Positions 57,725 through 60,098 of a stretch of 64,000 bases of DNA are shown in pieces. Each line of letters opens with the position of its first letter. Within the stretch, counting starts at the first letter, position 1. The stretch is taken from the NCBI RefSeq assembly GCF_014651675.1, contig NZ_BMXI01000005.1:1-64000 (forward strand). Reading direction: 5' to 3'. Both the position numbers and the translations under genes were made by a program. The stretch comes from Roseibacillus persicicus (lineage in GTDB: Bacteria > Verrucomicrobiota > Verrucomicrobiia > Verrucomicrobiales > Akkermansiaceae). A model generated the notes under the pieces. It searched no databases. It was not told the origin of the DNA and saw only the letters and a list, made by a program, of their open reading frames with translations.

Positions 57725-58303
57725 ATGAAATTGAAATTCGTATTCACGATGATGGCTGCTAGCGGTCTTCTCGTTGCGCCAGCTCTCGCCGATAATCACG
57801 GCGAAGGCAAGAAGGCTGCAGCGGAAGCGGTGGCAGACGGCTCGGTGACCGCCTATGTGGTCGCCGCAACTGGTGGGGGCTGAGGCGCAGCAGGAAAGGT
57901 CAGTTCGGCCTTGAAAAGTCAGCCCGGAGTCAAAAGCGTAATCCTCTCGGGCCTGCGTGCAACGGTGGTCATGGACGGCGATGCCGCTCTGGACGAAGCA
58001 AAAGTCAAAGCCGCCCTCAAGGGGAAAGGCATGGGCTTCGCCTCCATGGAGAAACAAGAAATCACCCGACCCAAGGTGGCCTACGAGCTCATTGTGAGCG
58101 GTGCCACTTGAGCGATCAAAAATGACAAAGCCCGTGTGGCTTTGGAAAAATTGGACGGGGTTTCGGGAGCGTTTGTGAACAACAAGATCGCCATCCACTT
58201 CTCGGAAGAGAAGGAACTCGATGAGAAGCTGATAGCTTCCACCATCAATGAGTTCGGGATGAAGGTGAAGAGCTCGAAGAAGCTCTCTACGCTTCCATTC
58301 TAA
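57725..58303 (+). CDS. Secreted double-selenocysteine protein with two tandem HMA-like domains
   Basis: 192 codons from ATG 57725 to TAA 58301-58303, with TGA at codon 53 (57881-57883) and codon 129 (58109-58111). A signal peptide (MAASGLLVAPALA) is followed by two similar beta-alpha-beta-beta-alpha-beta units: VTAYVVAATGGG-U-GAAGKVSSALKSQPGVKSV and VAYELIVSGAT-U-AIKNDKARVALEKLDGVSG. In HMA domains (GMTCxxC...LxGV) the metal cysteine sits in the same loop, and U129 aligns with the first Cys of CxxC. U53 falls one residue away. Each TGA is followed by a hairpin at bacterial SECIS distance. A strong terminator follows the TAA. The alternative is a pseudogene with two nonsense codons. selA, selB, selC and selD are not in the window. 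Confidence 0.75.
57896..57912 (+). promoter_or_regulatory. bSECIS-like hairpin after the first TGA
   Basis: A 6-bp stem AAGGTC / GGCCTT (one G-T pair) with loop AGTTC. The loop starts 18 nt after the TGA at 57881-57883 and contains GU, as in bacterial SECIS elements, which lie just downstream of the UGA inside the coding sequence. Confidence 0.55.
58126..58144 (+). promoter_or_regulatory. bSECIS-like hairpin after the second TGA
   Basis: A perfect 7-bp stem CAAAGCC / GGCTTTG with loop CGTGT. The loop starts 21 nt after the TGA at 58109-58111 and contains GU. It is the more convincing of the two hairpins. Confidence 0.65.
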
Positions 58304-58323
58304 AACATTCTAACAGAAATCGG

Positions 58324-58360
58324 GAGGTCCGTCGCAGAGATGCGTCGGGCCTCTTTTTTT
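58324..58360 (+). terminator. Strong intrinsic terminator of the selenoprotein gene
   Basis: A stem of GAGGTCCGTCGCA / TGCGTCGGGCCTC, 12 of 13 positions paired (one G-T), with loop GAGA, followed by seven T. It lies 20 bases after the TAA at 58303, which supports that TAA, and not either TGA, as the end of the gene. Confidence 0.92.
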
Positions 58361-58427: not shown

Positions 58428-60098
58428 TCAATTGGGTCGAGGAGTGACGGTGTTCAACTGTCCTCGAGCTGTGACGGTGCTTTTCCCGTCCGGGGAATAA
58501 CTGAACACCGCTTGGGCCTGAGTTCGGGAATCGTTGAATTCGAAGAAAAAGGTCTCGTTGGCCCAGTTGGTGTAACCGGTTTCGAGAACAGTCTGCTGGT
58601 CGCCGGAGAATCGATTGCCGTTCCATTCTCCAGTTAAAAGAACCCGGCTCTTGATGTTTTGATTGTTGCTATCGTTCTCGATGCAGAAGAGCGAAATTTG
58701 ATTCGGGGTGGCGGGATCCAGCACAATCGATCGCTGCGATTGAGTCACGGCCTGACCCTGTCCATTCTGGAGCTTGAAGGTGAACGATCCTGCCAGGGTT
58801 TTCTCACTTTGAGTAGACTGGTTCGGAGTAGGGGCGATTTCTCCGCCTCCCTCCAATGCCGAGAGGTAGGTTTTGCCCGAGGAACTCACCGCCGTGGCCC
58901 AGCCCGTCCACTCCACTTTCTGCCAGTCATAGTTGCCATAGGTGGTGAACTCGTTCAGAAGCTTTCCGGTGGCTCCGGGGGAGAGCTTGCTGGTTTCCTT
59001 GAGGGAAAGGTTGGCGTCAGGACGAATCTTGATGGCTTCGCTGAGGACAGTGAAGCGACCGCTCTCGCGCGTGAGAAATTCTTTTCCTGTTTTGATGTTC
59101 CGGCTCAGAGCCCAGCCGACCACCTTGACGGGGTAGGAGGTGACTGAATTCTCGGTGAATTCCTCGCTCTTGTTCGTGAACCCGACCCGGGCGGAGTCGT
59201 TGTGTTGAACGAGTATTCCCTCTGATTTGCCACCCGGTTCTTGGCGCAGATTGACTCCTTCGCCGACTTGGCTTGTGAGATAGAGACGGTCGGGATAGGT
59301 CAGGGGTCGGGTTGCGCTGACATTGAGCTTCTGCACCGGACTCGGGCTGATGTAGGTCGTAGGAGGGAACTTGAAGGACGCGATGCGACTGGTTGGTTCC
59401 AGATAAAAGGCGGGGGTCTTGTCCGTTTCGCGGCGCATTCGCTGGGAGACGAGTTCGAAGGATTCGCGCACCGTCTTTCTATCTTTCATCGCTTGCGCAA
59501 AGGTCTCGGTGAAGACACTTGCGCTCACCTTATCCTTCGCGTTGTCGGCCCGTTGCAGGGGCTGGGTGGAGCAGATCACTCCGACATCATTCCCGTAGTT
59601 GATCACTCCTTGTCCGGCAGCGCTACCAATGCGACAGGCGTCAAAGATGACCAGCATGCCCACCCCGTTGGTGGGCTTGAGATTGGGCACAATAGAAGCA
59701 AAGAGTTTTCCTTCGGAAAGAAGCATGCTGTCGCTTGCGTTGGGAGGAACGACCGCATCCACTCCGAGAAAGATGAGGTCATTCTTCACCTGTGCACCGT
59801 GTCCGGCGTAATAGAGGATGACGAGGTTGGCATCCTGAAAGCGGGTCCGGTTGCGTCTGATTCCGCTTCGCAGGGATTCGGCGGTGAGGTTCTCGGAAAC
59901 CAGAGTCTCGGGAGCAAAGGGAAACTGGAAGCCCGCTCCAGCGAGAATCTCCGCTACCAGACGGGCGTCGCTGGCCGCACTCGGCAGATCGCCAGTTTTG
60001 GTATTGTAGTCACTGTTTCCAATTACCACCGCCAGGTTCTCGGCGGAGAGAGTGGTGAGAATTGAAAAGAAGAGCGCGAGAGCGGCCTGGAGCTTCAT
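58428..60098 (-). CDS. Secreted caspase-like (C14) peptidase with SH3-like C-terminus
   Basis: 556 residues with a signal peptide (ALALFFSILTTLSA). The caspase fold shows NLAVVIGNSDY, the catalytic histidine H100 in LYYAGHGAQ and cysteine C155 in VIFDACRIG, followed by DVGVICSTQPLQ. A middle region includes an SH3-like unit (GEGVNLRQEPGGKSEGILVQ), and the C-terminus is a beta domain (RVLLTGEWNGNRFSGDQQTV). Bacterial caspase homologues process partner proteins or act in defence and cell death, but exported ones are less understood. The lipoprotein gene just upstream (12 bases) probably belongs to the same transcript. Confidence 0.87.
   Translation of the reverse strand: MKLQAALALFFSILTTLSAENLAVVIGNSDYNTKTGDLPSAASDARLVAEILAGAGFQFPFAPETLVSENLTAESLRSGIRRNRTRFQDANLVILYYAGHGAQVKNDLIFLGVDAVVPPNASDSMLLSEGKLFASIVPNLKPTNGVGMLVIFDACRIGSAAGQGVINYGNDVGVICSTQPLQRADNAKDKVSASVFTETFAQAMKDRKTVRESFELVSQRMRRETDKTPAFYLEPTSRIASFKFPPTTYISPSPVQKLNVSATRPLTYPDRLYLTSQVGEGVNLRQEPGGKSEGILVQHNDSARVGFTNKSEEFTENSVTSYPVKVVGWALSRNIKTGKEFLTRESGRFTVLSEAIKIRPDANLSLKETSKLSPGATGKLLNEFTTYGNYDWQKVEWTGWATAVSSSGKTYLSALEGGGEIAPTPNQSTQSEKTLAGSFTFKLQNGQGQAVTQSQRSIVLDPATPNQISLFCIENDSNNQNIKSRVLLTGEWNGNRFSGDQQTVLETGYTNWANETFFFEFNDSRTQAQAVFSYSPDGKSTVTARGQLNTVTPRPN

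Follow-up and report, generated by a model that had tools for sequence, protein, structure and literature searches.

A predicted double-selenocysteine protein of two tandem HMA-like domains in Roseibacillus persicicus and its relatives in the Verrucomicrobiales

We identified a gene in Roseibacillus persicicus whose two in-frame UGA codons are, on comparative sequence evidence, almost certainly both decoded as selenocysteine (Sec) by SelB and tRNA-Sec, giving an exported protein of two HMA-like domains. The gene lies in the window, by which we mean the whole stretch of 64,000 nucleotides analysed (contig NZ_BMXI01000005.1, positions 1 to 64,000), from a host genome of 5.28 Mb. An earlier note, made from the letters alone, had proposed a single frame from ATG to TAA through two TGA codons, and translation confirms it, with TGA at codons 53 and 129 and the TAA at 58301 (Table 1). 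The genes either side of 57725-58303 are on the opposite strand, which suggests that it is transcribed by itself. The strong terminator that had been noted after the TAA is borne out by folding of the 62 nt 3' of it (-28.9 kcal/mol, z -6.0), though it is absent from the output of a simple consensus scan. The start of the adjoining ORF (58428-60098, minus strand) resembles a caspase-like protease that has a secretion leader.

Table 1. Features of the double-selenoprotein locus, in window coordinates.
Feature	Position	Strand	Basis
Double-selenoprotein gene	57725..58303	+	Translation: 192 aa with TGA = Sec, stop TAA; two TGA in 50/50 full-length homologues
Signal peptide, cleavage after ALA22	57725..57790	+	Predicted by eye; hydrophobic, MKLKFVFTMMAASGLLVAPALA followed by D
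HMA-like domain 1 (residues 41-113), beta-alpha-beta-beta-alpha-beta	57845..58063	+	Pfam PF00403; AlphaFold2 secondary structure
TGA codon, Sec53	57881..57883	+	beta1-alpha1 loop; invariant 26/26
SECIS-like hairpin 1, loop AGUUC (57902-57906)	57895..57913	+	Covariation; held-out test
HMA-like domain 2 (residues 118-186)	58076..58282	+	NF041115 below cut-off; CopA 1p6t profile match; AlphaFold2
TGA codon, Sec129	58109..58111	+	beta1-alpha1 loop of domain 2; invariant 26/26
SECIS-like hairpin 2, CAAAGCC-CGUGU-GGCUUUG	58126..58144	+	Covariation; held-out test
Intrinsic terminator hairpin and T-run	58322..58360	+	Fold z -6.0

Both TGA codons are conserved in every full-length homologue found. A full-length homologue is present in 26 of 98 relatives' genomes (the window's own counted), each with exactly two TGA, and in the alignment of these 26 all 52 TGA fall in two columns, with none elsewhere. 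The residues invariant in this alignment are G50, G52, U53, G68, G76, G126 and U129. In an order-wide sample, 50 of 387 genomes hold a full-length homologue (160 bits or more; the next best match scores 32.5 bits), again with exactly two TGA in every case, so that at least 49 sampled relatives of the Verrucomicrobiales host carry the gene. None of these homologues has ordinary stops in place of the TGA codons or ends at the first of them, outcomes that the note had named as refuting its reading; both are kept and the frame continues. No version with Cys occurs among the 50 full-length homologues from the 387 genomes of the order, a sample in which candidates per genome were limited and groups were sampled, such that rare Cys homologues could exist. 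Class and phylum samples gave no full-length match outside the order, and a search of plasmids returned none for the family. An alignment-based scan of genome contigs recovered nine loci, in Akkermansiaceae/Verrucomicrobiales, and the named carriers are Akkermansiaceae, Verrucomicrobiales and one Rubritalea MAG.

Behind each TGA lies a covarying SECIS-like hairpin, the signal for which the note had advised a search. Both have a 7-bp stem and a 5-nt loop. Stem and TGA are separated by a fixed offset, 11 nt at site 1 and 14 nt at site 2. Hairpin 1, as it stands in the window, leaves the outermost consensus pair of the 7 unformed. Across the 26 genes, 166/182 pairs form at site 1 and 171/182 at site 2, against 115.8 (sd 4.6) and 112.4 (sd 4.8) under a null in which the protein sequence is fixed and codons are drawn synonymously. 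Both sides have changed in 5/7 pairs of hairpin 1 and 6/7 of hairpin 2, the covariation score is equalled by 0/500 shuffles at either site, and none of the slid registers of either hairpin comes near the score of the true register. In 12 held-out genes, which were not used in defining the stem, 68/84 and 78/84 pairs form (nulls 48.7 and 47.8). The apical loop carries GU (the xGU type) in 25/26 genes at site 1 and 23/26 at site 2, and both UGA thus have the stem-loop directly downstream, with G in the apical loop, by which bacterial selenoproteins of the SelB/SECIS type are recognised. Whole-segment folding energy gives a weak signal (mean z -0.4 and -1.0) because it is unspecific to the hairpin, and we therefore relied on the fixed-position pair test. 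Rfam yielded only sub-threshold matches. Under our reading, each UGA would be decoded via its own hairpin at this fixed distance.

The machinery for such decoding is in place: a search for selA, selB, selC and selD, likewise advised in the note, found all of them, the host genome encoding selA, selB, a tRNA-Sec with UCA anticodon and a Sec-type selD. Among relatives, selA accompanies the family in 24/26 genomes versus 19/72 genomes without it (Fisher p 3e-9, a value for which kinship overstates the independence of the genomes), and the two carriers lacking a selA match have tRNA-Sec. The host selD (L047, G000:C13:136723-137652) is itself a selenoprotein gene: the U of its motif SSCAGUASKL is a TGA, with a SECIS-like hairpin of loop AGUUU behind it.

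These observations bear on whether UGA might instead stand for an amino acid other than Sec (Trp, Cys or Gly), by readthrough or by reassignment of the codon. The frame would be open under any such code, but the covarying hairpins stand specifically behind both UGA, as a hairpin does behind the TGA of selD; Sec machinery with a UCA tRNA-Sec is present and co-occurs with the family; and the site matches the ligand Cys of HMA domains. Many long ORFs in the window, where ORFs were called mechanically, also end at TGA, which argues that the codon is not globally reassigned and serves elsewhere as an ordinary stop. We consider reassignment very improbable.

Decoding as Sec is further supported by selection on the protein. 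In nearly every pair tested, pN/pS (Nei-Gojobori) is below 1 in each of the three segments that the two TGA delimit, the exception being a single near-identical pair whose first segment has zero synonymous changes. That amino-acid changes per site are rarer than silent ones in all three segments of the 26 aligned genes indicates that translation continues past both TGA, in agreement with the note's claim that the frame is coding on both sides. Nothing beyond the stop codons themselves speaks for a pseudogene, or for two nonsense codons introduced by sequencing error; both readings are refuted by this purifying selection after each TGA and by the conservation of both TGA, in the same two columns of 26 aligned genes and in 50/50 genomes from several genera and families, and we give them next to no credence.

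The signal peptide claimed in the note is directly visible as a hydrophobic leader, and a lipobox Cys in three relatives (L017, L018 and L021) supports export independently. The mature protein encoded in the window contains no Cys. Pfam HMA (PF00403) matches it over two stretches with 32.5 bits (gathering threshold 24.8) and matches 9/26 family members at E 0.01, and the two halves of the protein are homologous with Sec aligned on Sec (hhalign 98.2%, E 2.8e-14). AlphaFold2 predicts two beta-alpha-beta-beta-alpha-beta units (pLDDT >90 for most of residues 41-180), with about 40 residues disordered; since pTM reaches 0.72 despite these, the two domains appear to be placed confidently relative to each other, and the model suggests a fixed arrangement. 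The placement of both TGA in the same loop of two repeated HMA-like units, the beta1-alpha1 loop in which HMA domains bind metal, was thus correctly anticipated. There is one Sec per domain, at a spacing of 75-77 residues across the family. A search of a viral fold library gave nothing convincing.

The further proposal that Sec occupies the metal-binding Cys site holds in part. Profile alignment with the N-terminal tandem of CopA (1p6t) pairs Sec with the first Cys of CxxC, but the second ligand is absent, its position being mostly Ala/Gly in domain 1 (A/G/D/S/P) and Thr/Lys/Glu/Asp in domain 2 (T/K/E/D/I), so that the protein does not have the CxxC ligand pair of PF00403. CopZ, MerP and the CopA N-terminus share the ferredoxin-like fold, and the last is also a tandem, whereas all three use CxxC and the window protein has Sec for the first Cys and has lost the second. 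Taken singly, its domains match the structures of CopZ and MerP (TM 0.73-0.78 on target). Superposing the entire protein on 1p6t is unsuccessful (rmsd 14.5, TMq 0.29), which implies that the domain packing of the AlphaFold2 model differs from that of the CopA tandem. The sole other HMA protein found in the host genome (L126, G000:C3:330381) resembles, by eye, a CcoI/FixI-like copper P-type ATPase.

We compared the protein with named families. NF041115 (UxxU_metal_bind metal-binding (seleno)protein) likewise has an HMA fold and two Sec, but both Sec sit in one UxxU of a lone domain of 74 positions, whereas the window protein has UxxA and UxxK (T in most relatives); the window protein reaches 26.7 bits with this model, whose cut-off is 95 (best of the 26 members, E 4.7e-9). 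MerP TIGR02052 gives 14.8 bits (cut-off 92.55), and the CopZ models also remain below their cut-offs. NF045683, a MerT/CopZ fusion-like heavy metal transport selenoprotein, shares the HMA part and Sec but is a 235-position MerT fusion and is not among the protein's matches; other HMA selenoproteins at side loci match it weakly. MbdU, the metal-binding double selenoprotein (NF045648), shares the type of name and two Sec but spans 468 positions with a CU motif, and the host genome has no match to it even at E 10, leaving its 600-bit cut-off unreached. A marine selenoprotein listed as 'Mercuric transport protein MerP' in the GOS data (two sequences, zero Cys homologues; PMC2398784 Table 2) could be a relative; that 2008 entry gives a name, and neither its motif nor its sequence is given in the text (PMC2398784).

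The family is an HMA-type selenoprotein absent from the NCBIfam 2026 models, and no tandem HMA protein whose domains each hold a single Sec appears in a 2026 inventory of 119 prokaryotic selenoprotein families and subfamilies (PMC13188914). It reaches the cut-off of none of the named selenoprotein families encountered and is absent from the catalogues searched, in keeping with the note's suggestion of a new or little-described selenoprotein type. The literature examined contains no description of a natural bis-selenocysteine HMA site. The family appears to be Sec-only as far as searched, and methods that depend on homologous Cys/UGA pairs would tend to miss it, as no Cys homologue was found.

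Other HMA selenoprotein genes were seen in the same searches. One (L030, G057:C47:5529-5948), in a genome also carrying the main double-Sec family, is a tandem HMA gene distinct from that family; its two TGA lie in the motifs UASGC and UAGGC (UxxxC), and it scores 79.3 bits with NF041115 (cut-off 95). Two others (L070, G043:C59; L071, G035:C29) encode exported proteins of a single HMA domain, each with one TGA and a UxxxC motif (UAGSC and UGVGC), the two in which motifs were read; about 20 more weak matches like them, often in the same genomes, came from the 387-genome search. Five loci in family f8 of the class (L056-L060) encode exported HMA proteins that likewise have one domain and one TGA, here with UxxC (UGSC, UAGC), and a hairpin of loop CGUGA lies behind the TGA in the three that were folded (L056, L057 and L059).

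Taken jointly, the observations are probably best explained by a double-Sec tandem HMA protein that captures a soft metal in the envelope. Loss of the second CxxC ligand rules out ordinary HMA chelation within one domain, and the two invariant Sec, beside which there is no other thiol-like group, suggest a pair acting together, on a soft metal or as a diselenide. We would give about an even chance to the most likely function, in which the two selenolates capture a soft thiophilic metal, Cu(I), Hg(II) or Ag(I), in the cell envelope; the metal might occupy one digonal Se-M-Se site common to both domains, or each domain, with its one Sec, might hand it to a partner. An inter-domain bis-selenolate metal site, or a reversible diselenide/metal switch, in a Sec-only family is a more tentative proposal that falls a little short of even.

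A sizeable minority of our belief goes to a redox selenoprotein, a reductase, peroxidase or switch, which in the oxidising envelope would form an intramolecular Sec-Sec diselenide, or a mixed selenenylsulfide with a client, and for which the HMA fold would be a scaffold only. The invariant Sec pair in a protein without Cys, the lost second ligand, export, and the mostly redox character of known selenoproteins (PMC13188914) would all accord with this. Against it stand the HMA fold, in which Sec sits precisely where the first metal ligand would be, and the lack of a thioredoxin-type fold or resolving Cys. Comparison of gene neighbourhoods likewise found no redox partner gene kept nearby; it also found no conserved operon and no metal-resistance genes, and the recurrent neighbours look like housekeeping genes, e.g. 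a dihydroxy-acid dehydratase-like protein (by eye). We favour metal over redox because the fold and the Sec position are those of metal ligands, with redox close behind.

Whichever role applies, the family offers a clean natural test of the role of Sec at a metal-ligand position, and it shows that a lineage known here mainly through metagenome-assembled genomes has kept Sec in exported proteins.
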